The notes beneath the pieces are model-generated. The model saw only the letters and a program-made list of their open reading frames with translations. It did not search any database and was not told the origin of the DNA. The position numbers were made by a program, and so were the translations under genes. From Flavobacteriales bacterium (lineage in GTDB: Bacteria > Bacteroidota > Bacteroidia > Flavobacteriales_D > Sanyastnellaceae), in assembly GCA_018402085.1 (NCBI GenBank), contig JAGYJM010000002.1, positions 1,550,001-1,614,000 on the forward strand: a DNA stretch of 64,000 bases. Reading direction: 5' to 3'. Of this stretch, positions 27,601-49,497 are shown one piece after another (position 1 is the stretch's first letter; each line of letters starts with the position of its first letter).

Positions 27601-30600
27601 CCGCAACGGCAGAACCGGGCGGTCCTTATACCATCTGTAGCAGTGACATTGCCAATATTGAAGTGACTACCACACCAGGTGACGGATCCTGGTCGGGCGG
27701 TGCAGGTGTTTTTGGTGACGCTTCCAGTGCTTCCACCACCTACGATCCTGATCCATCAGAAACCGGTAACACAGTTATACTCACATGGACAACAGTCGAT
27801 CCCGATGATGACGGCCCTTGTCAACCTGTCACCACCCAAATCGAAATCAATGTCCTCGAAGAAGCTATTGCTGAAGCTGGCGGGCCCTACGCTGTGTGCG
27901 GTGCAGAGCCCATCGAGTTATCTGCCACCACCAATGGCAACGGTCAATGGAGCGGCGGCACCGGATTATTCGATGATCCCACCAATCCCAATGCCACCTA
28001 CACACCCGACCCCTCCGAAGTAGGCACATCCATTACACTTACGTGGGACACATTTGATCCCGATGGTGATGGCCCTTGTGACAGCGCTACCTCGGATACC
28101 GAACTCACGATCAGCACTCCCGCAACGGCAGAACCTGGCGGCCCTTATACCATCTGTAGCAGCGACGTTGCTAATATTGAAGTAACCACCACCCCCGGTG
28201 ACGGATTCTGGTCTGGCGGTTCAGGCATTTTTGGAGACGCTTCCAGCGCTTCCACAACCTATGACCCTCACCCATCTGAAACAGGTACCGGGATTCTTTT
28301 GAATTGGACTACCGTAGATCCTGATGGAGATGGACCATGCACAACCGTAAACGCCACCATTTCGGTCAACATCCTGGCGGAAGCAACAGCAGAGATCTTT
28401 GAGCCAAATTTCACTTGTAACGACACGCCCGTTGAAGTTCAGGTTACCGCCAATGGTGCCGGTGAATGGTCTGTTGCTCCGGCGTCTGCCGGTGAATTCG
28501 CCGATGTTTCAGATCCATCAACAGTTTTTACCCCTGCGGTCGACCTTTATACATCTTCAACCGTCACCCTTGAATGGATTACATTTGACCCTGATGATGA
28601 TGGTCCCTGCACGGCATTTACCACCAACGCGCCACTCGAGCTTAATGAATTGCCTCTTATTGATCTTAATCCTGCATTTGAAATCGATTGCGGTGATGAA
28701 ATTGAAGCTGCCATTTCTGGCGGCACCATTGGTGCTGACTACAGCTATGCGTGGTCACCTGTTGATGGAATCGTTTCCCCAAACTCAAATCCAACTCCGG
28801 TAAATGCAGCAGGTCAGTACACATTGACCGTAACCGATGACAACGGCTGCTCAAGCGAATCAGAAACGGTAGTCGAACTCAACGAACTCGACCAGATGGC
28901 CGCTGCCGAAGATGCAGAGCTTTGCTTCAATGAAGAAGTAACACTGATCGGATCCGCAACACTTGGTGCCGCACCCTTCAGCTATCAATGGTCACCTTCG
29001 GATCATCTGACCCCTGACGAAGCCGATGAAGCAGAGGTGACATTCGTGTACAACGAACCGGATTTTGCACAAGACAGTACATTCATCCTATCGCTCTTCG
29101 TAACAGATGCACTGGGTTGTACAGATGAAGAACTGGTCGAGGTGCTGGTTCACCCTCTGCCGGTTGTAGAAGCAGGTCCTGATACTGCCCTTTGCGCTTA
29201 TGAAGCTCCTTTCTTCCTCACAGATTACTCACCTTTAGAATTTGAAGGACTCTCAGGAACGTGGAGTCCATCTGGGTTGGTAGAGCCCGGCAATTTGCCT
29301 ATTGGCCCGAATACTTTCGAATACACCTTCACAGACTTCAACTCTTGTACAAATGTGGATCAACTAACCGTCACGATTCATGAAGTACCCGTGGCTTCAT
29401 TTGCCTATCCTGAACAAGCTTGCGAAAATGAACCTGTCGTATTCTCTAGCACATCTACTTGCACCACCTGTGGACCATTGCAATTAGACTGGGATTTCAA
29501 TGGCGAAGCTTCCAGCGACCTCTTTGCTCCTTCGCATACATTTAGTGATACAGGTTTTGTAGACATCCAATTGGGAGTGATTTCTACTTTCGGTTGCCAG
29601 GACTCTATAACAGAAACAATGCACATCCTGGCTCTGCCGGAAACGTCCTTCGAACTAAGCGATAATGGCCTTTGTGGGCCAGTCGACATCACTCTTGATA
29701 ACACGACCATTGGCTCAGGTGTGACTTTTGATTGGAGCATCGAACCTCTTGGCGTAAGTGCGGAACCAGAACCGGGCACGTTGACCTTCCCTGCCGCTCC
29801 TTGTGACTCCATTTTCTATCAGATCGATCTCACCGCTACCAATATTTGTGGAAGTACAAGTTTCAACGATTCACTACTCGTCTACGCCCTTGCACAACCA
29901 GACTTCGTTTTCAGCGCAGACACAGTCTGCTCGGAGCAGCTGGTAGAAATTTACAACTCAACGGAGTGCGCCTGGCAAACCATTTATCAGTGGGATCTTG
30001 GTGACGGTAACGTCTCAAACTCTCAAGATCTTGAAATTGCCAATGTTTACACCACCGGACTTGACTTTACCAGCTACCCTGTAACACTCACGGCTACGAA
30101 CCCTTGTGGCGTCTCCGAATACACAGATGAAATCATTATCGCACCTATTGAAATTGAAGCATTCTTCAATGCAGACCCGATCACAGGCTGCGAGCCCCTC
30201 GACGTGAATTTTGACCAGGAGATGTTTGGCGTAACATACTTCGGGTGGGACTTTGGAGATGGCTACACCTCTGCAACAGAAGACCCCGAACATACGTTCC
30301 TGAACGACGGCTCATACCTGGTAGAGTTCATTGCCGGAAACTTCTGCGGAGCTGAAGACACTGCATATCAAACCATCAACGTACTGCCGGCGCCTCAGAT
30401 CGATTTCATTAGTACAGAACAATTCTTGTGCGTAGGCGAAGCCACACAGTTTATTCCATCCGGCGACCCGATCACCGGGCATAACTGGTCGTTTGGTGAT
30501 GGTAATTCGAGTACGCAGGTTTCACCGGGTCATATCTACGATGAAGAAGGCTTCTACGAAGTCACACTTGACGCCTTTTCGTCTTTAAACGGTTGCCCGA

Positions 30601-31403
30601 ATAGCGTCACAGATACTATTCAAGTTATCACAACTCCCGTCGCCCAGATTTCAACCGAAGAGGCCGAGGGTTGCCCTCCGTTCACGGCAGTGCTAACAAA
30701 CGATTCCGAAAACGCTGTCAACTTCTTTTGGGACCTTGGAGATGGTAATTTCTTCGTAGGCGACACACTTACCCACACCTTCATGGAAACAGGTGACTAT
30801 GAAGTAGAAGTCATCGCTATAAACAGTAACTCTTGTGCTGACACTACAAGTATTGAAATCACCGTTTATCCGCAGCCCATTGCTGATTTTGAGTTTGAGA
30901 CTTTCGATAATGACTTCAATCTGGATGTCGACTTCGAGAACCTCTCACAAGATGCCGTGGCCTACGAGTGGACGTTCGGTGATGGCAACGATTCTTACTT
31001 CACACACCCTTATCATTCGTATGAAAAGACCGGCAGTTGCATTTACAATCCGCAACTCATCGCCTACAACTTCTTTAATTGTACCGATACAATGGCCAAA
31101 CCAATCGAGATTCCTCTTGAGATGCGCATATGGGCTCCGAATGCCTTCACCCCTGACAATGATGGTATCAACGATGTATTCAGCATAGTCACCAGTGATG
31201 TAGCTACAGAAGATTCACGACTGGCCATTTTCAACAGATGGGGAGTACTCATTCACGAAGACATTGGACTCTACCCTTCCTGGGATGGCTATATTGACGG
31301 AAAACTAGCCAAAAATGATCTCTACGTCTGGAAATACTTCGGGCGTGAAAAATGCGGTGAAGAAGAGGTGAACCTAACAGGGCATGTGGTCTTGATCAAG
31401 TAG
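21648..31403 (+). CDS. Giant SprB-like surface adhesin with gliding-motility C-terminal domain
   Basis: 3251 residues. A signal peptide (about 10-31, FCTFLLLLVGQLSSVAQ) is followed by Ig/PKD-like modules (about 32-785). A long run of about 85-residue repeats (785-2330) shares GPYxxC ... SGTGTFxD ... TxTPxxxxxG ... TWTTDDPDGDGPC. Further Ig modules follow, then PKD domains with DFGDGxxS motifs (2700-3120). The last 90 residues (WAPNAFTPDNDGINDVF ... IFNRWGVLIHE ... WDGYIDGKLAKNDLYVWK) are the CHU_C/TIGR04131 gliding-motility-associated domain, a type B sorting signal for type IX secretion. The protein should be exported and tethered to the cell surface for adhesion or gliding. The Asp-rich repeats probably bind calcium. 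Confidence 0.92.
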   Translation: MLSPILFLSSRKNVFCTFLLLLVGQLSSVAQDCAVSIDEGNNIDLNCGEQIEITVSPNNGGPFTYEWTGPNGFTSAEAQATVSESGEYTLTVSGENCDGEANAVVEVEIDQLLNMANAGSDISKCEGETVTFNIPNDGVSSNPNQNGTGPYTYSWSPVDGLSNPNILNPECSVTESTVYTLTVTDANGCSDTDQMNVSITPSAVANLEAGQGVTETDFNGVATFYKCGTNATTNFNFLDPTGGDPGSTYTISWGDGTPDYSSNTQPNPIGHVYEIGIYDLTYTIEEPDGCVSTVNYQVFYGSNPAVGLGNPGNTNVCSPSELTFPITGTEDNASGTIYTVTFNDGSPAEIFNHPPPNSITHTFQTGSCGTTSSDGQNDYENSYQANIVAENPCGTSSGTIVPIIINTSPSAGFTIDPYPISCTNTPVQVTSTATAEEIQGAVCLNEPPTVWEITPATGWSVTSGSLGATNGFDDFGVNWDPTSWTPGSQNLTVVFSEPGAYTIDQLVGISCGFETSTDTICIEAPPVPDIVLDPTTGCTPLVVNTSNNSLLDGCDVTFEWTAQQLTEGCPPQPGSIIYNGQLLEPEFEFIGQGTYEVTFTATNSCGSFDQTISPITVNGPPIIDQAPLEDICASGGCVSPSATTDDCGLAVEYAWSFPGGTPSSSDQQNPGQVCYDNPSTYSLTASATNNCGTAESVVEINVFPIPEVDAGDDLDLCEGDVSTLDGSASGGAGGFNYQWSPGTGLSDTNIPQPDVNANNNTTYTLTVTDASGCVGSDDVDVTVFPPATADANGPYSACEGLSVELNANASGNGSWSAPPGTGSFSDPSSTNTTFTPAAGQAGQSITVTWTTDDPDGAGPCGPASSDAVVTVLPPATAEIMGPDIMCSDTPVEIEVDSSVDGTWTTSGSGTFSNDGAASTTYSPSAADIGNTIEITWNTIDPDGALGPCVATSDVTTITINQAATADAGGPYAACGDQVVNIEADANGDGSWTIVGGNGFFSDATNQVTDFQVVSPIPGTVTLEWTTDDPDGNGPCQSVTSQTDIVVDAPPFANINGPFVVCSNGSVEVSVDTNYDGSWSTSGSGTFDDAQNSTTFYTPGATDNGTIDLTWTSIDPDGPCEPISDVTTIEINTAASASPLGPFVACGEEPVSIDVDSSISGSWSVINGSGTFDNSSEQQTLFTPGSSGVIELQWTTDDPDGDGPCEPVAVIETVTINDPAAATIDGPFTACSNLPIEISVTSNATGTWSTSGEGVIADINAETTAYTPAPNDFGSVVTITWTTDDPDGNGPCIPAVAESEITFNEAASAEVEGPFTTCGSDAIEVVATTSGEGEWSIVSGEGSFDDLSNNTTIFVPGDNAQTPITIAWSTNDPDGDGPCPAVSDESTIDIFPPATAEVTVASTLCSNEPIEVEAITNSSGSWSSSGAGIFDASTEAETAYIPVADDALNSPIILTWTTDDPDGDGPCEAVSDSEEIEINLPPVVDAGNDFVLCLGNGDEVLNGQPDGGTWSGEQVTEDGVFSPVNPEAYELIYFFTDAVGCSDEDTLIINVNQSAIAEAGGPYQTCDIEVVQLEATTNGNGQWSGGTGLFDDPTNPNATYTPDPAEVGTTITLTWDTFDPDGDGPCNSATSDTELTISTPATAEPGGPYTICSSDIANIEVTTTPGDGSWSGGTGVFGDAASATTTYDPDPSETGNTVILTWTTVDPDDDGPCQPVTTQIEINVLEEAIAEAGGPYAVCGAEPIELSATTNGNGQWSGGTGLFDDPTNPNATYTPAPAEEGTTITLTWDTFDPDGDGPCNSATSDTELTISTPATAEPGGPYTICSSDIANIEVTTTPGDGSWSGGAGVFGDASSASTTYDPDPSETGNTVILTWTTVDPDDDGPCQPVTTQIEINVLEEAIAEAGGPYAVCGAEPIELSATTNGNGQWSGGIGTFNDPSSPNATYTPAPAEEGTTITLVWDTFDPDGDGPCNSATSDTELTISTPATAEPGGPYTICSSDIANIEVTTTPGDGSWSGGAGVFGDASSASTTYDPDPSETGNTVILTWTTVDPDDDGPCQPVTTQIEINVLEEAIAEAGGPYAVCGAEPIELSATTNGNGQWSGGTGLFDDPTNPNATYTPDPSEVGTSITLTWDTFDPDGDGPCDSATSDTELTISTPATAEPGGPYTICSSDVANIEVTTTPGDGFWSGGSGIFGDASSASTTYDPHPSETGTGILLNWTTVDPDGDGPCTTVNATISVNILAEATAEIFEPNFTCNDTPVEVQVTANGAGEWSVAPASAGEFADVSDPSTVFTPAVDLYTSSTVTLEWITFDPDDDGPCTAFTTNAPLELNELPLIDLNPAFEIDCGDEIEAAISGGTIGADYSYAWSPVDGIVSPNSNPTPVNAAGQYTLTVTDDNGCSSESETVVELNELDQMAAAEDAELCFNEEVTLIGSATLGAAPFSYQWSPSDHLTPDEADEAEVTFVYNEPDFAQDSTFILSLFVTDALGCTDEELVEVLVHPLPVVEAGPDTALCAYEAPFFLTDYSPLEFEGLSGTWSPSGLVEPGNLPIGPNTFEYTFTDFNSCTNVDQLTVTIHEVPVASFAYPEQACENEPVVFSSTSTCTTCGPLQLDWDFNGEASSDLFAPSHTFSDTGFVDIQLGVISTFGCQDSITETMHILALPETSFELSDNGLCGPVDITLDNTTIGSGVTFDWSIEPLGVSAEPEPGTLTFPAAPCDSIFYQIDLTATNICGSTSFNDSLLVYALAQPDFVFSADTVCSEQLVEIYNSTECAWQTIYQWDLGDGNVSNSQDLEIANVYTTGLDFTSYPVTLTATNPCGVSEYTDEIIIAPIEIEAFFNADPITGCEPLDVNFDQEMFGVTYFGWDFGDGYTSATEDPEHTFLNDGSYLVEFIAGNFCGAEDTAYQTINVLPAPQIDFISTEQFLCVGEATQFIPSGDPITGHNWSFGDGNSSTQVSPGHIYDEEGFYEVTLDAFSSLNGCPNSVTDTIQVITTPVAQISTEEAEGCPPFTAVLTNDSENAVNFFWDLGDGNFFVGDTLTHTFMETGDYEVEVIAINSNSCADTTSIEITVYPQPIADFEFETFDNDFNLDVDFENLSQDAVAYEWTFGDGNDSYFTHPYHSYEKTGSCIYNPQLIAYNFFNCTDTMAKPIEIPLEMRIWAPNAFTPDNDGINDVFSIVTSDVATEDSRLAIFNRWGVLIHEDIGLYPSWDGYIDGKLAKNDLYVWKYFGREKCGEEEVNLTGHVVLIK
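26562..28330 (+). repeat. 519-bp near-identical intragenic tandem repeat
   Basis: Units start at 26562, 27081, 27600 and 28119 (the last diverging). Each encodes two 85-88 residue modules, one with CSSDIANIEVTTTPGDG and one with CGAEPIELSATTNGNG. Long stretches are identical at DNA level including third positions, so the duplications are recent or homogenised. Confidence 0.9.
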
Positions 31404-31868: not shown

Positions 31869-32876
31869 TCAAGAATTCGACATCCTTTCGTAACGGAAAC
31901 ATTCCGACAATATTTGATTGCCATATGCTACGAATGATGCCGAATCCCAATCTCCCTCAAGAATCGCTTCATACATCTCTCGCTTGTCTGGTTCTAATTT
32001 TACAAAACCATGACTATGTACGTTTCGCAAAAGGCGAAGAACCTCCCAAAAAGTATAAATCTGCTCACCAATTTTCAACAGCCTGTTTATACTCTGATAT
32101 GTAACCAAGTATTTCTCATCTTTTCTCGCTTTTCCACCATAAACACACATCTCCCTGTTTTTAATATAAAATCTTCTAACCTCTATCCAGTCACCAGTGT
32201 CCGCTACATACTTCAATGGCTGACTAGGCTGAAAGCAAGCCCCGAGCGATTCGAGTTGATAATTGACATTGAATATATCTCTTTCTACTTCAACCTTCTC
32301 CATTCCTTTTACAAAATAGACTCCAATCGTAGGCGGAAAAACGAATAAGTGGTAATATGAACTTATAAGTTTCTCAAACCATGTATGCAACTGTTGATCA
32401 AGCTTCTCGCTATCTGCCTCATCATCATTTCTGCTCTTCAAGAAAATACTTTGACTGTCAGGATCTTTGTAAACATCAGCTATTCCAGTAAAATTAAACC
32501 ATTTATTTATTGATTCGATGCGTTCCCGTAAGGCATCTGCAGAAACCTTTTCAAAACGATGGTTTGCTAAACCTTCGAGGCACTTTGCTAGACTCACTGC
32601 ATACTCAATATAAGATGAAGACAACTCAGAAAGAAAAACACTAGAGAAATAGCCAAATAGTTCCTCCCTCCATCTTTCATCTTCTATCTGACCTACGGCA
32701 GTATCAAATCTTTTCCTGATACTATCATCCCAACTCCCAGTGCGATGAGACACAGTTATGAACTCAGACTCAATACTTGTGATTGTTTTCTTCTTCTCAA
32801 CATCCTGCTCAACATACTGAGCAAATACCTTAGCCATTTTACTGATTTCCGAACTAAGTTGCTTAATGTCATCCAT
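31869..32876 (-). CDS. Retron accessory protein, candidate HEPN-like effector
   Basis: 335 residues, unknown family. The N-terminal half is helical and charged (EQDVEKKKTITSIESEF, about 15-60). A middle part has mixed character with HTWFEKLISSYYHLFVFPP. The C-terminal part has helical FWEVLRLLRNVHSHGFVKL at about 276-294. RNVHSH (R284, H289) fits the Rx4-6H motif of HEPN ribonucleases and sits in a helix, as it should. The start overlaps the reverse transcriptase stop by 8 bp, so the two are co-translated; a protein in this place is normally the toxic effector that a retron RNA-DNA holds in check. No signal peptide or membrane segment. The HEPN assignment rests on one motif and context. Confidence 0.6.
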   Translation of the reverse strand: MDDIKQLSSEISKMAKVFAQYVEQDVEKKKTITSIESEFITVSHRTGSWDDSIRKRFDTAVGQIEDERWREELFGYFSSVFLSELSSSYIEYAVSLAKCLEGLANHRFEKVSADALRERIESINKWFNFTGIADVYKDPDSQSIFLKSRNDDEADSEKLDQQLHTWFEKLISSYYHLFVFPPTIGVYFVKGMEKVEVERDIFNVNYQLESLGACFQPSQPLKYVADTGDWIEVRRFYIKNREMCVYGGKARKDEKYLVTYQSINRLLKIGEQIYTFWEVLRLLRNVHSHGFVKLEPDKREMYEAILEGDWDSASFVAYGNQILSECFRYERMSNS

Positions 32877-33897
32877 TCTTTAAATGATTAAACTGTTCCG
32901 TTAAACGTATAACAAGCGTATCTTCATCCCCTCGCACCATTCTGAGAAACATCAGTTTACCTTCAAGGACTCGAGCAAAATCTGCAGTTTCGGCAGGATG
33001 CCCTTTGAGTACCTCAAGTTTGTCCTGACAAAAATCGAGGCCTTTCGTTTCCCAATTGTGCAGCATGGCCCGTATTTGGTTGACAAACTCTCTCGGTACG
33101 TTGACTTTTTCATTCACGACCAAACCCGTTACCTCTTGTCTAGTCGATTTATCAAGCAAACGCGTCTTCTTAATATTGAATCGAAAGCCCTCTTCGCTGA
33201 CAATCCTTTCGAGCTTTAAGAAGAACTTACCGTCAAATACCCTTTCATCTGACGACAAAGTCATATCATCTGCATAGCGAGTATAGACGCACCCCCTGGC
33301 TAAGGCAAAAAGATTCATCCTGCGATCCAATCGTTGACAAACGATATTGGTCAACACAGGTGATGCCGGTGAACCTTGAGGAAGAACACCAGCAAACGAG
33401 CACAATCCGGCAATGAGCTTCGCACCTTCTTCCGGGAAGTCAAATGGCGCGAGTTGAAGGACAGCTTTCACACGACCTTGTGTAATAGTAGGGAAAAAGT
33501 CCTTCAGGTCAACGTTAAGTACATACAGCGCACCTACATGTTCTTTTGCATTTGACACAATGCTACGCTCTCGAACAAAGCCGTGCACACTCTCATCCGG
33601 CTCAAACAGGGCCTGTAGGAGTTCACTGATCAGATGCTGAATTCTTTTTAGACCTCTCTTAGGAGCATGGATGCTTCGCGTTGAACCCGATTTTTTAGGA
33701 ATCTCGAAATACCGGTACTCCATGTCTGCATTGTGCAAGCAATAAACGAGCTGCTTCAAAGAAAGTTCAACATACTCAGACTCTGAATTTGCTGCATTCA
33801 ACCGCCCGATGGCATTGAGCAGTTTAACCAAATCTAGAGCCGAGCGGCATCGTTTAGCCGCTAGTGAGATTGCCTTATGTTCTGTAATCGTATACAT
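32869..33897 (-). CDS. Retron-type reverse transcriptase
   Basis: 342 residues from the ATG at 33897 (a TTG at 33903 is the alternative). It shows NAKEH (116-120), the retron-specific NAxxH motif, followed by YVLNVDLKDFFPTI with the first catalytic Asp130. LPQGSPASPVLTNIVC follows (172-187), then YTRYADDMTLSS with the catalytic YADD at 208-211, and VTGLVVN (256-262), the retron VTG motif in the thumb. There is no maturase domain, so it is not a group II intron enzyme. A structured RNA with matching a1/a2 arms lies directly upstream (33909-34118), and the accessory gene follows with an 8-bp overlap. The enzyme should make multicopy single-stranded DNA covalently joined to the msr RNA. Confidence 0.92.
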   Translation of the reverse strand: MYTITEHKAISLAAKRCRSALDLVKLLNAIGRLNAANSESEYVELSLKQLVYCLHNADMEYRYFEIPKKSGSTRSIHAPKRGLKRIQHLISELLQALFEPDESVHGFVRERSIVSNAKEHVGALYVLNVDLKDFFPTITQGRVKAVLQLAPFDFPEEGAKLIAGLCSFAGVLPQGSPASPVLTNIVCQRLDRRMNLFALARGCVYTRYADDMTLSSDERVFDGKFFLKLERIVSEEGFRFNIKKTRLLDKSTRQEVTGLVVNEKVNVPREFVNQIRAMLHNWETKGLDFCQDKLEVLKGHPAETADFARVLEGKLMFLRMVRGDEDTLVIRLTEQFNHLKNG

Positions 33898-33908
33898 AAT
33901 CAAAAAAG

Positions 33909-34118
33909 GTGAGAGACAGCCACGGCTTTCAAAACCTCAAGTAATCAATCTCAAAAAATGAGAATGAAATAAATGCCAGATGTCTGAATGTATCATGTAA
34001 CAGAAACTTCAGTTTCTGGTAAACAAGCCAAGATGTCATCAGTGCAAAGCAAATCAGAAACCTTGTTACATGCACTGTGTTACACAGCACGGATTAAACC
34101 TCTCTGGCTATCTCTCAC
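33909..34118 (-). ncRNA. Retron msr-msd RNA
   Basis: On the minus strand the transcript begins with a1 GTGAGAGATAGCCA (34118-34105) and ends with a2 TGGCTGTCTCTCAC (33922-33909), which pair over 14 bp with a single G-U. The a1 arm contains TAGC, so the G at 34108 is the likely priming guanosine, and AGAGAGGTTTAATC follows, resembling the start of known msr RNAs. A hairpin GTGC-TGTGTAACACA-GTGC (about 34090) is the msr stem-loop. In the msd part CATGTAACA (34071-34063) pairs with TGTTACATG (34002-33994), and CAGAAACT-GA-AGTTTCTG (34018-34001) is an inner hairpin. The RNA starts 4 bp after the helicase stop and ends 12 bp before the RT start. Its exact ends are inferred. Confidence 0.85.
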
Positions 34119-34122
34119 TATT

Positions 34123-35475
34123 TTATGCCGCCCAAGTTAGTAATTCAGTTCTTGCTCTCGTCACCGCAGTATAAGTCCAGCGGTTCGTATCGGTTTGTGG
34201 TCTGTAAGGATGTAGTATCACCCTGTCCCACTCACCACCTTGCGCCTTATGACAAGTCATCGCGTAACCATGCCTCAACCGAAAAGCACTGAGATATGGA
34301 TCGTCAACTCGATTAAGGCTATCACGGTATCTATGGTTCCTTTTCATGACCTCAGCTTTTAGCGCCTTTTCCTGCTCTTTTCTCAACAATCCGTTAGGTG
34401 AACTAAGAGTTTCCATCAAGCACTTCGATTGAAACGACGTCAATTGACCGGTGTGGTCCTCATACTTGAGCTTAACATCTTTGAAATGCAGACCTGCAAA
34501 TTCTTCCGTATGATCAGATACGCTTTCAATCACAGCTGAATCTCCTTTCATGATATGCGCTCCTGTCGCAATCCAGTTATTTTGAAATATTACTTGTTCA
34601 CCTGCGACGAGCAGCGCATCCGGACTACCGAAGATCTGATTGCGTAACTCTTCATTCCAGAAATTCACGTCTTTATTGGTATAGGCAATAACACATGTTT
34701 TATCAAGGTGGTCACTTGAATAGTTGGACGCATAGTAATCTCTGAGTTCCCACCAACGCGCACTCGGTTCGATCGAGAAGGGTGAAACGTCATTGTTTTC
34801 AATGCGCTCTCGCAGCTCGCTTGCCACAGCCAATATTTGTGATGATTCTTTTTGACGCACGACCTGGCGAATACTCAAGGCCTTAACACTAAGGTCAAAC
34901 TTCTTACACAAGTAGTTCTCATCCAGTGCGCCAGAGAACGGGTTGCTGTATTTCATCACTGGTGGCAGTTGGCAACGGTCACCAATAAAAAGCACCTTGC
35001 TCTTTGCATTTGTCATTTTCACAAATCGTATCAAGTCAGAGAGCAAAGCCCCCGGAGCAATAAAATCACCGGTTCGATCATGTTCATCACTGATCATTGA
35101 AGCCTCATCAATTATGAACAAGGTCGGTCTGTCTCCCACATCGTCACGCCGAATGAACTCCACGGTACCATCAGGTCTCTCGTGCGGAATATAAATCAGA
35201 TTGTGGATTGTTTTAGCACCAGTTCCAGTATGTTGGCGAAGTACCTTTGCAGCGCGACCTGTCGGTGCTGCCAACTGCACTTTACCTCCACTTTGAAAGA
35301 CGCAATTAACCAAGGCCTTCATTAACGAAGTTTTACCTGAACCCGCTGAACCATCCAAAATGAATACACCTTTCTGGTTTTCGTCGTTGATGAATTGATC
35401 AAGGGCCTGCATAGCTCTGATTTGGTCTTCACTCGGAGTGTGCTCGAAATAATCTTGAATCGTTTTCATTTTCAA
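34123..35475 (-). CDS. RecD-like SF1 helicase
   Basis: 450 residues. Walker A is GSAGSGKT (42-49), PTGRAAKVL (71-79) is motif Ia, IIDEASMIS (121-129) is Walker B, FIGDRCQLPPV motif III, and HGYAMTCHKAQGGEWDRVI with YTAVTRAR the motifs V-VI of the UvrD/RecD C-terminal domain. It is shorter than RecD2 and lacks its N-terminal region, so it is closer to single-domain RecD-like or Pif1-like helicases found in mobile islands. Its stop is 4 bp before the retron RNA, suggesting co-transcription. A palindromic operator (35541-35567) sits 66 bp upstream of the start. Whether it belongs to the retron function is inference. Confidence 0.88.
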   Translation of the reverse strand: MKMKTIQDYFEHTPSEDQIRAMQALDQFINDENQKGVFILDGSAGSGKTSLMKALVNCVFQSGGKVQLAAPTGRAAKVLRQHTGTGAKTIHNLIYIPHERPDGTVEFIRRDDVGDRPTLFIIDEASMISDEHDRTGDFIAPGALLSDLIRFVKMTNAKSKVLFIGDRCQLPPVMKYSNPFSGALDENYLCKKFDLSVKALSIRQVVRQKESSQILAVASELRERIENNDVSPFSIEPSARWWELRDYYASNYSSDHLDKTCVIAYTNKDVNFWNEELRNQIFGSPDALLVAGEQVIFQNNWIATGAHIMKGDSAVIESVSDHTEEFAGLHFKDVKLKYEDHTGQLTSFQSKCLMETLSSPNGLLRKEQEKALKAEVMKRNHRYRDSLNRVDDPYLSAFRLRHGYAMTCHKAQGGEWDRVILHPYRPQTDTNRWTYTAVTRARTELLTWAA

Positions 35476-35527: not shown

Positions 35528-35567
35528 CAAAGATGAATGCCAAGTCTGCAAATGCATTGCAGACTTG
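35528..35567 (-). promoter_or_regulatory. Island operator A with -7 box (helicase-retron promoter)
   Basis: Perfect palindrome CAAGTCTGCAA-N5-TTGCAGACTTG (35541-35567). Its -7 box CATCTTTG on the minus strand (35528-35535) lies 13 bp from the palindrome edge, as at the other three sites. It precedes the helicase gene by 66 bp. Confidence 0.75.
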
Positions 35568-35573
35568 ACCTTG

Positions 35574-36074
35574 TTAGTTCATTCCAAACTGCAAGTCTGC
35601 GGGAAACAAATGCTCATGCTCACAAAAGGTCTGCGGATCTACGAGCTCAACGATTTTACGCTCTTCAATGCGGATAGCAATACGAAAAAGGTGTTCATTG
35701 TCACTACTCTTGATTCCAAGCCTGGGCTGTGGCGCAGCAATCTGATCCTCAAGCGTGCGACCGATTACAAAACGAATTTCATACACAACTTCACCAGGCA
35801 AATCACTCAAGGCAAGACCAGTGTTCAAGTTAATGAGGGGCTCATCTTTTCGAAGGGCATTCAACCAACTCATGTATTGAGCTAAAAACTGTGTCTTGCC
35901 CATACCTAAGAATTTACCACCTTCATGAAGACATTCGTTAATCATGTCAGAATCACCATGCATAAGGCCAAAAAGAAGATGCTGAATCACCCTGTGATTT
36001 ATTGCTCTCTCTTCTTGAACATCAATCAATTTCTGTAGAATACCTGTGCTATTCATTCGCGATTTTATTACCAT
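35574..36074 (-). CDS. Hypothetical protein, possibly NTF2-like
   Basis: 166 residues (or 160 from the ATG at 36056). The pattern QHLLFGLMHGDSDMINECLH then EGGKFLGMGKTQFLAQYMSW and later EHLFRIAIRIEERKIVEL resembles the SnoaL/NTF2 fold, where an N-terminal helix pair is followed by strands ending in the (D/E)GKIxE turn. This is a fold-level guess without catalytic residues to check. It follows the zinc-ribbon gene with a 59-bp gap and ends 7 bp before operator A. It has no signal peptide and is probably cytoplasmic. Role in the island unknown. Confidence 0.55.
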   Translation of the reverse strand: MVIKSRMNSTGILQKLIDVQEERAINHRVIQHLLFGLMHGDSDMINECLHEGGKFLGMGKTQFLAQYMSWLNALRKDEPLINLNTGLALSDLPGEVVYEIRFVIGRTLEDQIAAPQPRLGIKSSDNEHLFRIAIRIEERKIVELVDPQTFCEHEHLFPADLQFGMN

Positions 36075-36306: not shown

Positions 36307-36346
36307 CAAAATTGACGACCAACTGTGCAAGTAAATTGCAGAGCTG
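36307..36346 (-). promoter_or_regulatory. Island operator C with -7 box (zinc-ribbon promoter)
   Basis: Palindrome CAACTGTGCAA-N5-TTGCAGAGCTG (36320-36346) with CAATTTTG on the minus strand (36307-36314) as -7-like box, 13 bp from the palindrome. It stands 40 bp from the zinc-ribbon ATG and 77 bp before the WYL gene in the other direction. Confidence 0.65.
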
Positions 36347-36422: not shown

Positions 36423-37460
36423 ATGACTAAGAAAGAACTGTTCCGACTGCTGAAAGTCGAATCGTTACTGAAACGCCCAGTGCAAGATGCCTTGACTAAA
36501 TCAGAATTGCTGAATGAGCTCAATGAGCAACTGCACAGAGAGAGCCTGCCGACTATTAAGGATCGTACACTCGACACGCTGTTCCGGCAAGTTGAAGAGA
36601 TATTAGGTTGTGAAGTCAGAAGTGAGCGGATCTATTCTTCCGGAAACGATCGACCACGATACATACGTTACATAGAGACGCGTAAGAGTATTACAGACGA
36701 GGTCATTACCGAAGAGCAAGAAGTCACCATCCGTGAAATCATTCAGCAATTAGACAGAATGTCCGGGAACCCCATGCTTGACGAACTGAGAGTTGTTCTT
36801 GGCCAACAAATAGAACAACGCACCACTCAAGGAAGCGATAAACTAATCGTACATTTTGACGACGAAGACACGTATCACGGGCGCAAGCACATTGCAGCAT
36901 TCTATGATGCTATTCAGAACGAATATGCTATCAGTTTCGATTATCAGCCCTTCGGTAAGGAAGCATCTACGGTTACTCTGTCGCCATATTTGCTCAAACA
37001 GTATAACAGACGATGGTTTTGTATAGGACATGTCAATGAGAGTCCGTACAAACTAACCCATTTCGCCCTTGACAGGGTGATGAGTTCACCTGTAAAAGAA
37101 GAAGAATTTAAGCACTCTTCATTCACTCGTGCAGACTGGAACCAGTACTTCCAAGACATCATCGGAGTGACCTACCCTGCGAACGCTGAACCGAAAGACA
37201 TCGTTCTTCACTTCTATGGTAAAGCCCGTTCTTACGTTTATACGAAGCCGCTTTCGGTTGCCCAGCGTCAGATCAAAGCCGAACAACTCAACAATGAGCC
37301 GATGGAAGTAACTCTCGAAGAGATTATTCCGAATTTCGAACTCAAGCAAAAAATCCTGGCATTCGGTGATGAGGTTGAGGTAGTTTCTCCGAACGAGCTC
37401 AGAGAAGAGATGAAACAGATGACCTCCCGAATGGCTAATCGCTACAAGCCACAAGTCTAA
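36423..37460 (+). CDS. WYL-domain transcriptional regulator, paralogue 1
   Basis: 345 residues. An N-terminal winged helix (MTKKELFRLLKVESLL ... LDTLFRQVEEILG, about 1-65), a WYL domain (about 140-235; FDYQPFGKEA and LSPYLLKQYNRRWFCIG), and a WCX-type C-terminal domain (about 240-345; DIVLHFYGKARSYVYTKPL). This is the CapW/BrxR-like layout, in which a dimer binds inverted repeats and responds to a ligand, often controlling defence genes. The paralogue at 49942-50982 has the same length and motifs. It is divergent from the zinc-ribbon gene with operator C between, and 12 bp from the HEPN-like membrane gene downstream. Binding to the palindromes is inferred. Confidence 0.9.
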   Translation: MTKKELFRLLKVESLLKRPVQDALTKSELLNELNEQLHRESLPTIKDRTLDTLFRQVEEILGCEVRSERIYSSGNDRPRYIRYIETRKSITDEVITEEQEVTIREIIQQLDRMSGNPMLDELRVVLGQQIEQRTTQGSDKLIVHFDDEDTYHGRKHIAAFYDAIQNEYAISFDYQPFGKEASTVTLSPYLLKQYNRRWFCIGHVNESPYKLTHFALDRVMSSPVKEEEFKHSSFTRADWNQYFQDIIGVTYPANAEPKDIVLHFYGKARSYVYTKPLSVAQRQIKAEQLNNEPMEVTLEEIIPNFELKQKILAFGDEVEVVSPNELREEMKQMTSRMANRYKPQV

Positions 37461-37472
37461 ACCGTCACAAGA

Positions 37473-38288
37473 ATGAGTGACCTCTCTTTCGAAATAGCTG
37501 AGCAGAAGTTGCAACTGCTCGCCACAGTCCTACCTGAACACCACACGGAACTTGAACAGGCAAAAAATTACCTGCGCAACGACCCCAACGCTGTTATGAT
37601 GAAACTGCGACTTGTTTTAGAGGCACTTGTCTCAGAAGTCTGGGAGCACCACAATAAAAACGCTACTACTGGTTCGCTTGCTGAGATGATGAACAATGCT
37701 TCATTCAAACAGGTTGTTGAGCGGCGCGTACACAGCAGAATGAACAGTTTACGAATCACGGGAAACCTGGCGGTTCATTCAAAGGATGTCAATTCAAGTG
37801 ATGCTCTGAGCAGTGTTGACCACCTTTTCGAAATCGTCAACTGGTACCTCCCCCGCTTCAAAAACAAGCCGCAACTGCCTGAACCCAGCGACCAGCCACA
37901 TCCATTGACTCGGTTCTTAAAAGACAGTCTTAAAGACGTTGTTTTCCTGTTCGTGATGGCAGCTAATTGGCTTTTTACATTGTTGATATGTCGATTTGCG
38001 GAGATTTTCCCGGTTTTCAAAGGTACCCCCATCAGTAAAGTATATGAAGGCCTTTTTAAAGCCGGCATGACGGTTAGAGGAGTCCGTGTTTCCGGCACTC
38101 TTTTTTCATTCAGTTATAGTCTTACTATCGTGCTCCTTTCGTTTATAGCTGCATGGTTGATCTTCAAGCGATTCAGAAGACAAAACCTCACATCCCGGAT
38201 CGTGGCCTTTCAGCTAATGTTCACCTTCTTCTTCGCTCTACAACTGCTCTTTCTGATCTTCACTGATCCCTTCGTAAATATTTTCTAG
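37473..38288 (+). CDS. DUF4145-like (HEPN-fold) membrane protein
   Basis: 271 residues. The N-terminal part (about 1-125) has the DUF4145 pattern: VMMKLRLVLEALVSEVW, then SRMNSLRITGNLAVHSKDVN with R94 and H102 bracketing GNxAVH, and DALSSVDHLFEIVNWYL. This domain also occurs at the N-terminus of type I restriction subunits and belongs to the HEPN-like helical proteins. About four membrane helices follow (DVVFLFVMAANWLFTLLI, LFSFSYSLTIVLLSFIAAW, RIVAFQLMFTFFFALQLLFL and a weaker one). A membrane effector or sensor is likely. It is in one unit with the WYL gene, 12 bp after it. Whether the R/H pair is catalytic is unclear. Confidence 0.7.
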   Translation: MSDLSFEIAEQKLQLLATVLPEHHTELEQAKNYLRNDPNAVMMKLRLVLEALVSEVWEHHNKNATTGSLAEMMNNASFKQVVERRVHSRMNSLRITGNLAVHSKDVNSSDALSSVDHLFEIVNWYLPRFKNKPQLPEPSDQPHPLTRFLKDSLKDVVFLFVMAANWLFTLLICRFAEIFPVFKGTPISKVYEGLFKAGMTVRGVRVSGTLFSFSYSLTIVLLSFIAAWLIFKRFRRQNLTSRIVAFQLMFTFFFALQLLFLIFTDPFVNIF

Positions 38289-39130: not shown

Positions 39131-39694
39131 CTAGCGTTCGCCATCAACGTTGAAAACCGGACGACCTAATCCGATGGCCAGCGTCTCCAGATAAAAACGA
39201 TCGAAAAGATGTTCGTCACCATCAAGCTCAACGTAGTTGAAATAGGTCATTTGCAGGCCTTCTGAACGAAAGTCAACGTCTTTCCTGTAGAACAAATGAT
39301 CAAAGCCGGCACGATACTGACAGGAGGTAGTTGGCTTCACTATTTTGCCCTGACCTCCGAAAGGTTCTCGACCAAGACATAAGTGCAACCTCAATCGATT
39401 ATTCAAATTCGTAGTCTTGCCAACATAGGCAAGATTCATAGATTTCTTGAGGAATGGCTCCCAAGTCTGATCTATGTCCCTTCCCCCGGGCCCTATAAGC
39501 GTGAAATCGGTTTGTAATTCAGACTTATCTACTTGTGATAAATCAATGTAAAATACATAAACGCCACCTTTGGCAGGCACGGCTGAGTAGTCAGCTCGAC
39601 CGTTATTGAACTCAAGAAGATGCGACAACTGTTGGGCCTTGGATTCATCCAGCAGAACATCAATTAAGTCTTGATTTGGAACTTTAACCTTCAT
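39131..39694 (-). CDS. GIY-YIG nuclease-like protein
   Basis: 187 residues. The GIY-YIG elements are GGVYVFYIDLSQ (first strand, near residue 43) and MNLAYVGKTTNLNNRLRLHL (second strand, catalytic Tyr and Arg), with a YLETLAIGLGRPVFN segment giving the conserved Glu and Asn. It is last in the restriction-modification unit, 18 bp downstream of hsdR. Such proteins are homing or repair nucleases, or accessory nucleases of restriction loci. The first motif has VYVFY instead of GIYxI and a long insertion before YVG, so activity is uncertain. Confidence 0.7.
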   Translation of the reverse strand: MKVKVPNQDLIDVLLDESKAQQLSHLLEFNNGRADYSAVPAKGGVYVFYIDLSQVDKSELQTDFTLIGPGGRDIDQTWEPFLKKSMNLAYVGKTTNLNNRLRLHLCLGREPFGGQGKIVKPTTSCQYRAGFDHLFYRKDVDFRSEGLQMTYFNYVELDGDEHLFDRFYLETLAIGLGRPVFNVDGER

Positions 39695-39712
39695 TTTTCA
39701 TTTTGCATTTTG

Positions 39713-42670
39713 TCACCCCCTCATCTCACGCACCATCTGCCGATACATATGATCAACTAGCATCGGAAAGACTTTTGGGTCCATTACAGCTTTGTAAAAG
39801 TCAATGCGGTCGCCGTGAAAATCAATGACGGTGTCTTTGAACACTTGCCTGAAGTGCTCTTGCTTCACGTCTTCGGTGTTTTTGCCTTTCATGACCTTGA
39901 TCACGTCATCATTCGTTGTGATGCGTTCTTGAATCATATCAAGCGTCACACGGTCTTCTTCACCGAGGTTGATGCCGAACAGCTCATTTACCTTCTCAAT
40001 AATATCTGAAAGCAGCACTTTTTCTTCTTCGCCCGCGCTCTTGCCCGCCTCTGCCGACATACCGTACACTTCACCTTGTTCATCTTCAAGGGTGAGCTTT
40101 GATTCGCCCATCATCTGAATGCGCAATGAATCAAGGTCAATCGCATCAAGGATCGATACTTTCTCATTGTCGCGCTTCGGCAGCTTTTTATTCAGAAAAC
40201 GCAATAAAATATAGGCCTTCTCCCACTTTACTTCTGCGAATGATGATATCTGTGAGATGTACGAATACAGACGGATAAACGACTGAATCTTCCCTTTGAA
40301 TTCATCCTGCTGCTCTTCATTTAGTTTCTCCTTGTAGGCATCTACAACCACATCAATCATGGCGTGAAAGCGGCTGTCTGCATCTGTGCTGCGGTAGAAC
40401 TCTTTGCAGAATTCATCAAGCTGCATTTGGGTGTAAAGGTTGTACTGCTCAATCTCGTAGAGCAAATCATACAACTTATCCGGATCCGTCTCCTCACGAA
40501 GAATCGTTGAGGTGTAATAGGGCTCAAATGACTTGATGATGTCTTCCGGCTCATTGACGAAGTCAAGAATGAAGGTGTCTGTTTTACCTGATTTTGTTCG
40601 GTTCAGACGCGAAAGCGTCTGGACGCATTGCACCCCACTCAACTTTTTGTCGATATACATCGACTGTAAGAGGGGCTCATCAAAGCCGGTCTGGAATTTG
40701 CTCGATACAATCAGGATGCGGAACCGCGGATCTTTCAAACCGTTCGGAATGCTCATACCGTCCAAACCATTCTCGCGGTTCAATGATGTTTCGGTATTCT
40801 CCCGACCGTTGTGGTCAATAGAGCCACTGAAGGCCACCAGACAGCTGTATGATAACCCACGCTCGCGCATCTGACGCACCATTTCTTCATGAAACAGCAC
40901 ACAGTGCTTGCGCGAGCGAACTACAACCATAGCCCTGGCTTTACCGTCAATTTTCCTGGAGGCATTTTTCACAAAATGATCAAGCATGATGCCCACCTTC
41001 TGACGGATGGTTTCTTCATGCGAATCAACAAAGCTGACCAGCTCGCGCTTCACTTTGCTCTCCGGCACTTCTTCATCTTCTTCTGACGTTTGAAGCACTT
41101 TGAAATACCGCTTGTAGGTGGTGTAGTTTTGAAGGACATCCAAGGTGAAGCCCTCTGCAATGGATTGCTTCATACTGTATGAATGAAAGGGTTTGAAGTG
41201 CCCGTCTTCATTCTTGCGCCCGAAGAGCTCAAGGGTCTTATTCTTGGGTGTACCTGTAAAGCCAAAAAACGAAATGTGCTCTTGTCGCCCACGTGCCTCA
41301 ATCTCCTTACGGATCATTTCTTCGAGGTCGTCTTCGTCGTCGTCGTTCTCGTTCACCGAGAGTGACTTCTTCAGGTGTTTTGAGGTTTCGCCTGATTGCG
41401 ACGAGTGTACTTCATCAATGATCACCCCAAAGGTCTGCCCTTTCAGTTCTGAAATCACCTCAGAGACAAAAGGGAACTTCTGGATGGTCGTGATAATGAT
41501 GTCTTTTCCTTTCTCCAGATACTCGCGCAGTTGCGCTGAGTTGAGGTCAACCGGATTCACCACCCCTTTGGTCTGCTCCAGCTTGGTGACGGTTTTCTGA
41601 AGCTGTTTGTCAAGCACTTTACGGTCGGTGATGACCAGTATAGTGTCGAACATGCGCTTTTTGTCTTCTTCACGCTGGTACAAAGAGGTCAGGAGGTGCG
41701 ACAACCAGCCGATTGAATACGATTTACCCGCACCGGTGGTGTGCTGAATGAGGTAGTTGTGGCCGACGCCTTCATCGCGGACGGCCGATTTAAGCTTGCG
41801 GATAACATCAAGTTGATGGTAACGCGGAAAGATCTGTACCTCATAGGGCTTCGTCTCTACCTTTTTCTTTTGTGGATTCCACTGCCGGTCTTCTTCTTCA
41901 GAGATCAGTACGAAGTTCTCAATGATGTCTAAGAGTGAATCCGGCGCAAGCACTTCGTTCCAGAGGTACTCGGTGCGGTAATCGCCTTCAACCACCGGAT
42001 TGTCTATGCCTTTGTTATAGGGTAAGAACCTGGTTTTCTGACCGCTGAGCCGGGTCGCCATGCTTACCCGGTCATTGTCAACACAAAAATGCACCAGACA
42101 ACGCTTGAAACTGAGCAACGGCTCTTTCGGGTCACGATCGCGCTTGTACTGGTTCTCTGAGTGCTTGTAGTTCTGGCCGGTGAGCTGGTTTTTCAACTCC
42201 ATCGTGACCAATGGGATGCCGTTCAGAAACAGCACCATGTCAATCGAGTTCTGGTTGCGACGCGAATAGTGCAACTGGCGGACCACCGTAAACCGGTTCT
42301 GGGCGTACAGTGCCTGGTGGTCTTGATTCATGCTCGACTTGGGCTTGAAATACAAGACGTCAAACGAGCAACCCCGCGTCTCAATACCGCCACGCAATGT
42401 ATCGATGATACCGCGCTGCTGAATGTGTTTATCAAGGGTTTTGACCAATTGGTCATCGGTGCCGGCACCAAACTGCGTCTCTAAGCGTTCGTATTCTTCA
42501 GGTTGAGTGGCTTTGATAAACCCTACAAAACTGTCGCGCAGTAAACATAAATCTTTGTCGTAGCGCGACTCGTGCTCGCGGGCATGCACAAGGGCGTCGC
42601 TATACCCGCGTGCGAGCAGTGACTGCTCAATCCATTCTTCAAAACGCAGTTCAGTGAATCGTTTAGTCAT
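39713..42670 (-). CDS. hsdR: Type I restriction enzyme, HsdR subunit
   Basis: 985 residues, usual length. N-terminal PD-(D/E)xK nuclease: SIDMVLFLNG (Asp144) and TMELKN (Glu158, Lys160). Superfamily 2 motor: Walker A TTGAGKS (311-317), IIDEVHSSQSG (DEVH 419-422, the DEAH box), FFGFTGTP (motif III), and TLSRLNR (motif VI). A helical C-terminal domain binds the methyltransferase. HsdR cuts DNA far from unmethylated sites after ATP-driven translocation. It overlaps hsdS by 8 bp in the hsdM-hsdS-hsdR order. All key residues are present, so the motor subunit itself looks intact. Confidence 0.95.
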   Translation of the reverse strand: MTKRFTELRFEEWIEQSLLARGYSDALVHAREHESRYDKDLCLLRDSFVGFIKATQPEEYERLETQFGAGTDDQLVKTLDKHIQQRGIIDTLRGGIETRGCSFDVLYFKPKSSMNQDHQALYAQNRFTVVRQLHYSRRNQNSIDMVLFLNGIPLVTMELKNQLTGQNYKHSENQYKRDRDPKEPLLSFKRCLVHFCVDNDRVSMATRLSGQKTRFLPYNKGIDNPVVEGDYRTEYLWNEVLAPDSLLDIIENFVLISEEEDRQWNPQKKKVETKPYEVQIFPRYHQLDVIRKLKSAVRDEGVGHNYLIQHTTGAGKSYSIGWLSHLLTSLYQREEDKKRMFDTILVITDRKVLDKQLQKTVTKLEQTKGVVNPVDLNSAQLREYLEKGKDIIITTIQKFPFVSEVISELKGQTFGVIIDEVHSSQSGETSKHLKKSLSVNENDDDEDDLEEMIRKEIEARGRQEHISFFGFTGTPKNKTLELFGRKNEDGHFKPFHSYSMKQSIAEGFTLDVLQNYTTYKRYFKVLQTSEEDEEVPESKVKRELVSFVDSHEETIRQKVGIMLDHFVKNASRKIDGKARAMVVVRSRKHCVLFHEEMVRQMRERGLSYSCLVAFSGSIDHNGRENTETSLNRENGLDGMSIPNGLKDPRFRILIVSSKFQTGFDEPLLQSMYIDKKLSGVQCVQTLSRLNRTKSGKTDTFILDFVNEPEDIIKSFEPYYTSTILREETDPDKLYDLLYEIEQYNLYTQMQLDEFCKEFYRSTDADSRFHAMIDVVVDAYKEKLNEEQQDEFKGKIQSFIRLYSYISQISSFAEVKWEKAYILLRFLNKKLPKRDNEKVSILDAIDLDSLRIQMMGESKLTLEDEQGEVYGMSAEAGKSAGEEEKVLLSDIIEKVNELFGINLGEEDRVTLDMIQERITTNDDVIKVMKGKNTEDVKQEHFRQVFKDTVIDFHGDRIDFYKAVMDPKVFPMLVDHMYRQMVREMRG

Positions 42671-44033
42671 CGCTGGCCACTTTTACTTTACCGGTTACCA
42701 CTTCAGAAATTAACGCCTGACGGTACTCTTTCAACAGTTCAATGCGCTTCTCTTCTGTGGCAATGGTGGTATCGATGATGGAGGTTTGCTCGTCGAGATA
42801 TTCTACAATCTGCTCCTGTTCTGCGCACTCTGGAAATGCCACAATCATTGTCAACAAATCATCCTTTGAAATATTTTTCATACTCGGACTCGTACCCGTA
42901 GAACGAGAGGAAAGTTCACTTCTAAACCTTCTCGAAATGGTCACATAGCTCAACCATTTCACACATAGATCAATGTTCTCAAAAAATTGTGTAATCCATA
43001 GTCTATCAGGCAAGTAGAGATTATCTAAATCTTCCTCCACAAAGCCATTTGAACCAACCAATTCATGTGTATTCATTCTACTAAAAATTATTGCATTTCC
43101 GACAACAGGGCATTTTACTCTGTTATACTCATTGGGAAGTATCCTCTTATTCAATTCAGGTCTGAAAAGATCTCCTAAAACACAACTTGTTTTCAAAACC
43201 CCTAATTCATGAGGTTCATTTACAGGGATATCTTCTGAATTAACAGAAGTACCAGAATCCAAGTTTTTTATTATGTGCTTGAGCTGTTTCATCACCCAAT
43301 GCCTCGGAATCTCCCCAATCCACTCAATGCCGCTGTCTTTCATTTCAACGTTGGGGTCAAGGCCTTTGGTGACGGCTTGGTTGATCAGGGCGGTGCGCTT
43401 TTCTTTGAGCAGCGCAATCTTGCGCTCGGTCTTGGCGATCAGGTCGTCAATGAGGGTGGTCTTCTCATCCAGATACGCCACAATCTGCTCCTGTTCGTGG
43501 AGGGGTGGGATAGGGAACTCTGACTTTACATATTCATCAACCTTCAGATTTGGATAGGTCGTCGCAGATACCATTCGCTCTATCCTTTGCCTAGTGAGAT
43601 TGGATTTCAGCAAGTAATATGTCAGACGTGAGAGGAAATCGTTAGTAGTTCTCACCCTTAAAAGGAAATTACTAAAACCAAATTTGCCATCATCAGTCTC
43701 ATTTATGTAGCCGCATTTGCCAGTAATGATATTTGTTGCCGAACCAGATGATTTAACCACCACGACATCTCCGACTTTGCATAGATATCTATCTTTCTCT
43801 TCTTCTGACAAGTAACGAATTGTCATCCCATCATAGTTCCATCTACCTTCGGGTGATAATTGTGCCGTAGTTGGTATCGGTATACCAAAAGCTCCTTCGA
43901 AGGGTTCATCTTCACCCCAAACTCCGCTATTCTCTATTTCAGAGATGTATTGTAATCGCTTGACAGACCAATGCCTCGGAATCTCCCCAATCCACTCAAC
44001 CCCTGAATCTTTATAATCCTCGTACCGCTCCAT
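42663..44033 (-). CDS. hsdS: Type I restriction enzyme, HsdS specificity subunit
   Basis: 456 residues with two target-recognition domains (about 10-150 and 235-390), each opened by the same phrase (DSGVEWIGEIPRHW and DSGIEWIGEIPRHW), and each followed by a conserved helical spacer (IVAYLDEKTTLIDDLIAKTE; IVEYLDEQTSIIDTTIATEE). This two-fold symmetry is the hallmark of HsdS, which reads a bipartite DNA site for HsdM and HsdR. Its start touches the hsdM stop at base 44033. The recognised sequence cannot be read from the protein. No inverted partial hsdS copies were found nearby, so there is no sign of a phase-variable shuffle. Confidence 0.95.
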   Translation of the reverse strand: MERYEDYKDSGVEWIGEIPRHWSVKRLQYISEIENSGVWGEDEPFEGAFGIPIPTTAQLSPEGRWNYDGMTIRYLSEEEKDRYLCKVGDVVVVKSSGSATNIITGKCGYINETDDGKFGFSNFLLRVRTTNDFLSRLTYYLLKSNLTRQRIERMVSATTYPNLKVDEYVKSEFPIPPLHEQEQIVAYLDEKTTLIDDLIAKTERKIALLKEKRTALINQAVTKGLDPNVEMKDSGIEWIGEIPRHWVMKQLKHIIKNLDSGTSVNSEDIPVNEPHELGVLKTSCVLGDLFRPELNKRILPNEYNRVKCPVVGNAIIFSRMNTHELVGSNGFVEEDLDNLYLPDRLWITQFFENIDLCVKWLSYVTISRRFRSELSSRSTGTSPSMKNISKDDLLTMIVAFPECAEQEQIVEYLDEQTSIIDTTIATEEKRIELLKEYRQALISEVVTGKVKVASDD

Positions 44034-49457: not shown

Positions 49458-49497
49458 CAAAGGTTGGTATCAAGTGTGCAAATGGGTTGCAGACTAG
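49458..49497 (-). promoter_or_regulatory. Island operator B with -7 box (HNH promoter)
   Basis: Palindrome CAAGTGTGCAA-N5-TTGCAGACTAG (49471-49497) with AACCTTTG on the minus strand (49458-49465) 13 bp away. It overlaps the stop of the DUF4258 gene and stands 40 bp from the HNH ATG. Outside the palindrome CTTGAG-N-CAAAG is also shared with site A. Confidence 0.75.

Follow-up and report, generated by a model that had tools for sequence, protein, structure and literature searches.

A predicted WYL-controlled retron locus with a probable HEPN-type effector, in which a RecD2/PIF1-like helicase adjoins the retron RNA

The window, the whole stretch of 64,000 nucleotides that was analysed, encodes on its minus strand a block comprising ORF166, a helicase, a retron non-coding RNA (ncRNA), a reverse transcriptase (RT) and ORF335, with the regulator gene WYL1 divergent from it, as delineated by ORF calls and Pfam. 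The features of this block and its surroundings are:

36423..37460, plus strand: WYL1, a WYL/WCX-domain regulator (Pfam WYL 1.7e-9, WCX 3.2e-10), divergent from the operon
36321..36345, no strand: operator-like palindrome in the WYL1/ORF166 divergent promoter region, with 3 mismatches to AAGTNTGCAA-N5-TTGCANACTT
35574..36074, minus strand: ORF166, first gene of the block, no family found, included by position only
35542..35566, no strand: operator candidate directly upstream of the helicase, a perfect 10-5-10 palindrome also scored as a terminator-like hairpin
34123..35475, minus strand: RecD2/PIF1-like SF1B helicase of the PDC-M16A family, start TTG 35475 or ATG 35469
33908..34118, minus strand: predicted retron ncRNA (msr-msd), a1 arm 34105-34118, a2 arm 33908-33921
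32869..33903, minus strand: retron RT, start TTG 33903 or ATG 33897, with NAKEH (= NAxxH), YADD and VTG
31869..32876, minus strand: ORF335, probable HEPN-type RNase effector, motif RNVHSH at residue 284, 8-nt overlap with the RT end
37473-38288: DUF4145 (HEPN-superfamily) protein right after WYL1
49942-50982: second WYL regulator (WYL2), 40% identical to WYL1, with upstream palindromes at 49472-49496 and 49860-49884

The region is a defence island. Type I restriction-modification genes, read from the sequence as an N6 methylase, a specificity subunit and a 985-aa HsdR-like ORF, occupy 39131-45412 with a weak GIY-YIG ORF beside them, while a 320-aa zinc-ribbon protein is encoded after WYL2. On the other side of the block, at 21648-31403, lies a gene for a 3251-aa repeat-rich (PKD-like) protein, the C-terminal part of which reads like those of gliding/secretion-sorted adhesins.

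The RT (342-344 aa, no fused domain by Pfam) contains NAKEH, YADD and VTG, corresponding to the NAxxH, YxDD and VTG motifs of retron-type RTs. It is matched by RVT_1 (8.8e-23, Pfam) and by PADLOC retron models down to 9e-108, the closest being those of types XI (9e-108), XII (2e-102) and I-C (3e-95), and its nearest solved relative in the PDB is the retron Ec86 RT (4.6e-45). Just upstream of the RT gene lies the a2 arm, which pairs with a1 in a 14-bp stem, the best one ending near the RT start; this stem scores 34, with no score above 25 among 60 dinucleotide shuffles, and the region 33890-34140 folds with a z of -3.5 (0/200 shuffles as good). No Rfam family reaches its gathering score within the window. 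The locus carries a retron-type RT and a predicted ncRNA with pairing arms, and msDNA production is predicted. Only four nucleotides (34119-34122) separate the stop of the helicase gene (34123) from the a1 arm, in agreement with the sequence-only reading, which had given the same spacing and taken both to lie in one transcript. There is no promoter space in this gap, the single weak site of a sigma-70 scan within the helicase gene (34529-34500) falls within chance numbers, and the Bacteroidetes -7/-33 pattern has no match in the block and one outside it, with 1.3 expected.

That earlier reading had also placed an operator before the helicase gene, and a perfect palindrome, AAGTCTGCAA-N5-TTGCAGACTT, is indeed found there at 35542-35566, an operator candidate by its sequence. 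In relaxed form the palindrome occurs four times in the window against an expectation of 0.02, one of its three relatives being located in the promoter region of WYL1/ORF166, one immediately before WYL2 and one 446 nt further upstream of WYL2. Across the whole genome the exact 17-nt core is present at six sites, three of them in the window, and with at most one mismatch it gives 45 strand matches versus eight for the reversed pattern. These palindromes are candidate WYL operators; if they function as such, the helicase would be the first gene of a regulated helicase-ncRNA-RT-ORF335 unit. As the hairpin at 35542-35566 is also terminator-like, ORF166 may be a separate unit.

The helicase of approximately 450 aa contains Walker A, DEAS, GDRCQLPPV, HKAQGGEWD and TAVTRAR motifs and is matched by the Pfam families AAA_30 (8.8e-28), UvrD_C_2 (1.4e-14) and PIF1 (7e-11), characterising it as an SF1B helicase. 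The RecD2 model TIGR01448 gives 125 bits against a cut-off of 500, with the match starting at position 301 of 713, while the PADLOC PDC-M16A models match residues 3-445 at 2.1e-102. The window protein covers positions 1-481 of 721 of this family and ends at the helicase core, without a fused domain; the long retron-linked helicase of locus L032 scores 1013 bits with PDC-M16A. The protein had been described as RecD-like, which is correct in so far as it is a RecD2/PIF1-like SF1B helicase. It is not the RecD subunit of RecBCD, which is ruled out by a score of 65 bits with the RecD model TIGR01447 (cut-off 310) and by the lack of a RecB match over the cut-off in the genome. The models for RecB and Gram-positive AddA find only sub-cut-off matches across the whole genome, the best in a 1069-aa frame; since these cut-offs are strict, being passed in one and two of 14 control genomes, an AddA-like enzyme may well be present.

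At E 1e-30, 221 of 395 genomes of the class contain relatives of the helicase, mostly at 33-38% identity, and most of these relatives (~475 aa) are taken as a housekeeping form. A further copy, carried elsewhere in the same genome, shares 33% identity with the window copy and 47-50% with the widespread form. A tree of 52 helicases, for which 30 rows were drawn at random from the remaining ones, places the window copy in a set of 24 rows (99, starred), where it is nearest to L031 and L065, and 25 widespread rows lie apart. The 24 rows represent 20 loci once identical or overlapping stretches are merged, nine of which are RT-linked. Given this separate tree set and the other genomic copy of the widespread kind, the chance presence here of a plain housekeeping helicase is unlikely. 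The window copy has a long end branch. Long branches also lead to the long helicases of L032, L034 and L183, whose position next to the housekeeping set is unsure. A smaller and more careful tree, in which an antisense frame of L280 was included in error (the identity comparison was redone with the right frame), gives the defence grouping at 83/93 only and leaves the window copy without a starred set.

Thirteen further loci encode relatives of the helicase next to related retron RTs, two with the helicase upstream of the RT and eleven with it downstream. In the window, L031 and L065 the helicase precedes the ncRNA, and in the remaining RT- and helicase-containing loci it follows the effector. 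Searches starting from the helicase recover an RT homologue in the fetched flanks of seven of 80 loci (L065, L068, L069, L072, L073, L077 and L081), most of the 80 resembling the widespread form. Searches starting from the RT covered a subset of all matches, namely 40 higher-scoring ones, four from another search and seven of at least 30 plasmid records. Besides the window, six of these 51 loci encode a same-strand helicase (L031, L032, L034, L183, L203 and L204), or five when the near copies L203 and L204 are counted once. An opposite-strand helicase is present in L185/L186 (one gene in two stretches) and a weak opposite-strand one in L197, and no helicase was found in the others of the 51. 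For the more distant RTs of 49 viral contigs, no helicase gene was found within 6 kb.

In an RT tree of 60 rows, from which L068 (RT split in two frames) and the near copy L204 were omitted, the RT-first positives all belong to one 14-row clade (96, starred). Nine rows of this clade derive from the RT-first search: five with a same-strand helicase, one with an opposite-strand helicase (L185), one ending at a contig end (L033) and two without a helicase (L163 and L176). The same-strand helicase is thus present in 5/9 of these rows and in 0/41 of the other genome and plasmid loci, a comparison for which the clade was chosen from the tree after the event and in which one flank is cut by a contig end both in several of the 41 loci (such as L167, the neighbour side of L176, L181, L182, L187, L193, L199 and L202) and in L033 within the clade. 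The RTs of the window and L065 branch outside this clade, and the RT nearest to that of L065 belongs to L180, which has no helicase. Mapped on the tree, the helicase label requires six changes versus a mean of 11.2 for shuffled labels, with 0/500 shuffles as low, and the starred branches force five. On these counts the helicase-retron partnership is clustered but has been gained or lost several times, with varying position; such repeated recruitment argues for a function, and likewise for modularity. Conservation of the gene neighbourhood in related retrons, which the sequence-only reading had named as a check, gives a mixed picture: it holds in the 13 further loci and fails in L163, L176 and L180, related retrons without a helicase.

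Homologues of the WYL regulator are encoded in ten of the 13 further loci, the exceptions being L065, L203 and L204, and the helicase starts 26-75 nt after the effector in L068, L069, L072, L073, L081 and L183 (the last from coordinates). The a1/a2 stem, compared across 15 loci, is reached by at most two of 60 shuffles in nine, by 4, 7 and 11 of 60 in L034, L180 and L073, respectively, and by 30 to 33 of 60 in L032, L068 and L077. RNAalifold returned no consensus pairs for the upstream regions of ten downstream-type loci.

Several peculiarities were observed among the loci collected. The RT of L068 at 5862-7189 is split into two frames and a second RT is located at 10539-11618. L077 derives from a record titled as a Rhizobium MAG, the helicase and second RT of which group closely with those of the Bacteroidota locus L068, pointing to a probable binning error or transfer. 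An 'AAA family ATPase' two genes past the cyanobacterial RT of L205, and its counterpart in L209, were first taken for the same helicase; the L205 protein instead consists of an AAA_33 kinase-like part and a WYL part (Pfam), the latter recognised in both L205 and L209 by PADLOC. These cyanobacterial plasmid retrons (5896-9936 in L205, 5929-10003 in L209) comprise an RT, an unknown protein and a long protein with a WYL end. For a 1599-aa protein adjoining the RT of L168, the helicase match was short and absent in a later comparison. In many RT loci among L164-L199 the gene directly preceding the RT encodes a protein of approximately 350 aa, and each such protein has relatives in 27 other loci; this appears to be another, separate retron arrangement.

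A small gene (232-335 aa) is located right after the RT in the window and in nine of the 13 further loci, with varying sequence but conserved place and motif. The gap between the RT and this gene ranges from -29 to +4 nt in eight loci and amounts to 2 nt in L183, compared with the 8-nt overlap in the window. The pattern R[ND]x2-4H, chosen after inspection of these proteins, occurs within the last 45% of all ten small effectors, compared with 29 matches among 929 background proteins between 200 and 400 aa long. The published active site of HEPN RNases is Rx4-6H with N, D or H following the R (PMC3710099). Eight of the ten proteins fit Rx4H, including ORF335 with RNVHSH at residues 284-289, a match to Rx4-6H, while those of L032 and L183 contain Rx3H, one residue short of it. 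Seven aligned effectors share invariant F, E, R, S and H columns, the R, S and H being situated inside the motif. ORF335 has no Pfam match, its profile match is weak (probability 7%) and its predicted model is poor (pLDDT 42.6). No homologue other than itself was found in plasmids, viral contigs and its own genome, and none among the loci compared initially. A search of solved structures with the HEPN profile gave no useful match. The predicted structure of the L069 effector (pLDDT 76) is a helical bundle, for which the three best VIA matches are Csm6 structures (Z 6.8, 6.5 and 6.4; rmsd 8.4, 5.7 and 5.8; 164, 182 and 185 aligned residues), followed by 2q00 (Z 6.3) and then Z 4.6. As helical folds can often reach Z values between 6 and 7, and Foldseek finds nothing under E 0.001 with this model, the Csm6 matches are only suggestive. 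Its motif, position and length make ORF335 a probable HEPN-type RNase effector.

In the remaining four loci (L034, L077, L203 and L204), a receiver-protein cassette, accompanied in L077 by a conflict-type histidine kinase, occupies the place of the small effector. Receiver-type proteins, identified by BLAST to the 575-aa protein of L077 in each case, are also encoded in the clade members L033, L163, L176 and L185. R[NDH]x3-5H is found at the protein end in L077, L033, L034, L203, L204, L163 and L176, while the match in L185 is situated in a charged stretch and counts little. This suggests that the receiver-type proteins may carry HEPN ends too, in which case HEPN-type effectors may be common to the whole clade, some bearing a phosphorelay-like front and others not. 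The long helicase following the receiver cassette of L203 has a TBP-TOTE tail.

The helicase family is not restricted to retrons. Seven relatives (L145, L146, L147, L066, L067, L071 and L085) have no RT homologue in the fetched stretch, a count that leaves out L070, L078 and L133 as lying near contig ends. Their neighbours, recognised by reading the sequences rather than by family matches, are WYL and ATPase-like genes (L145 and L067), an ATPase-like pair (L066), and CRISPR-like (L146), DarT/DarG-like (L147) and HipA-like genes (L071 and L085). Stand-alone homologues, which the sequence-only reading had counted against the link, thus exist, and several of them adjoin other defence-like genes. 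In the PADLOC model PDLC04472 (PDC-M16A), the N-terminal part resembles the window DUF4145 protein and the rest matches the helicase, and fusions of DUF4145 HEPN domains to a 'UvrD helicase (endoV alpha subunit)' have been catalogued (PMC3710099). Both are consistent with a helicase that repeatedly serves HEPN-type effectors, and the family appears to have spread in modular fashion across defence genes.

The favoured interpretation, to which a probability of roughly 60% is assigned, is that the locus encodes a retron defence system under WYL control, made up of four protein parts: the regulator, the SF1B helicase, the RT with its ncRNA and msDNA, and a HEPN-type RNase effector. Its elements taken directly from the sequences are the gene order, the RT and helicase motifs, the a1/a2 stem, the shared palindromes and the recurrence in other genomes; the sequence-only reading had included neither the WYL regulator nor the HEPN-like gene nor the shared palindromes. 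Since the helicase recurs with related RTs in two gene orders and is preceded by the type of palindrome found at the WYL promoter, it is quite probably a working part of the retron system, as had been proposed. Its modular spread among defence genes, the related RTs that lack it, the variable gene order and its absence near the viral RTs weigh against this membership. In the mechanism envisaged, the WYL regulator would keep the block down until infection, perhaps by sensing single-stranded nucleic acid, and the RT would make msDNA, with the RT-msDNA complex holding the HEPN RNase silent. The helicase would serve as the input motor, loading on the msDNA itself or on single strands or ends of DNA that arise during infection, and its ATP-driven remodelling would release the HEPN RNase, which would then cleave RNA and stop the cell. 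This role of the helicase, coupling infection DNA or msDNA to HEPN release as a trigger or remodelling factor, is put forward tentatively. A broader proposal is of similarly limited likelihood, namely a retron type with an obligate, ATP-driven SF1B helicase that detects single-stranded DNA or the ends of phage DNA and, via msDNA, activates the HEPN RNase, with WYL control over the whole block. In such a type the helicase would have been recruited more than once, before the ncRNA or after the effector, within a wider pairing of this helicase with HEPN-type and other effectors.

Alternatively, the helicase may be a general defence-island helper under WYL-type control, serving any neighbouring system and not needed by the retron. 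The occurrence of its clade beside ATPase-like, CRISPR-like, DarT/DarG-like and HipA-like genes where no RT is found would fit such a helper, as would the WYL homologue directly adjoining the RT-less helicase in L067 and L145. The concentration of same-strand linkage in one RT clade and the close spacing after the effector in six loci argue against it, and it is considered rather doubtful. A brake or recycler is somewhat less likely still. In that role the helicase would clear used msDNA or RNA off the RT and return the HEPN complex to its initial state, or assist in msDNA synthesis, instead of acting as a trigger. Among the ten small-effector loci the helicase lies before the ncRNA in three and after the effector in seven, as would fit a helper made together with the complex, but no result obtained here separates this function from that of a trigger. 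Retron Ec48 has been described as guarding RecBCD, and the sequence-only reading had invoked this pathway for the helicase, which as a RecD/AddAB look-alike would be a bait, the retron sensing attack on it by inhibitors of recombination from phages. The presence of the helicase as an extra paralogue beside another genomic copy would accord with a bait. It is, however, a stand-alone SF1B helicase rather than RecD, the genome lacks a RecB match over the cut-off, and the catalytic motifs, which a bait does not need, are retained. A RecBCD link is not supported by these results, and a bait is very improbable.

Among known systems, the type IX retron Kva2 comprises a HEPN RNase and a winged-helix DNA binder, the HEPN protein lacking the canonical motif (PMC13405049). 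Kva2 resembles the window locus in that a retron RT and ncRNA are found in one operon with a HEPN RNase effector, predicted in the case of the window, and the two RTs are detectably similar (2e-27). They differ in the partner protein, a winged-helix protein in Kva2 and a helicase in the window, and in the canonical HEPN motif, which is found in the window but not in Kva2. Pfam identifies no winged-helix family in the minus-strand block, and the PADLOC RT_IX model ranks below XI, XII, I-C, XIII, III-A and others for the window RT. Types XI, XII and I-C, in which the RT is fused to a protease, TIR or Toprim, provide the closest PADLOC RT models, whereas the window RT is unfused and accompanied by a separate probable HEPN-like effector gene, a helicase and a WYL regulator. 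PDC-M16A matches the window helicase along its length, but the window protein is without a fused domain, and the widespread RecD2/PIF1-like helicase shares its domains and about 33-38% identity, but forms a separate tree set and is represented by the copy elsewhere in the same genome. The WYL-domain regulator beside a defence operon recalls the BrxR family of regulators of defence loci (PMC9122601) in domain and position, and differs in being paired with a retron and the window palindromes. In the parts consulted of the literature searched, the main retron classification excepted, no retron with such a helicase was found (PMC12548924, PMC9122601, PMC13405049, PMC7159879, PMC12458937, PMC3710099). 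The locus represents a little-described retron type, HEPN retrons being already known from type IX Kva2 and the helicase partner not, as far as these sources extend. To our knowledge, the trigger of most retrons is unknown, and an operon-encoded motor protein would be a direct sensor candidate. The pattern would also account for PDC-M16A, an orphan helicase family, as a common input module borrowed by different defence systems, and adds retrons with a predicted canonical HEPN motif and predicted WYL control to those already described.
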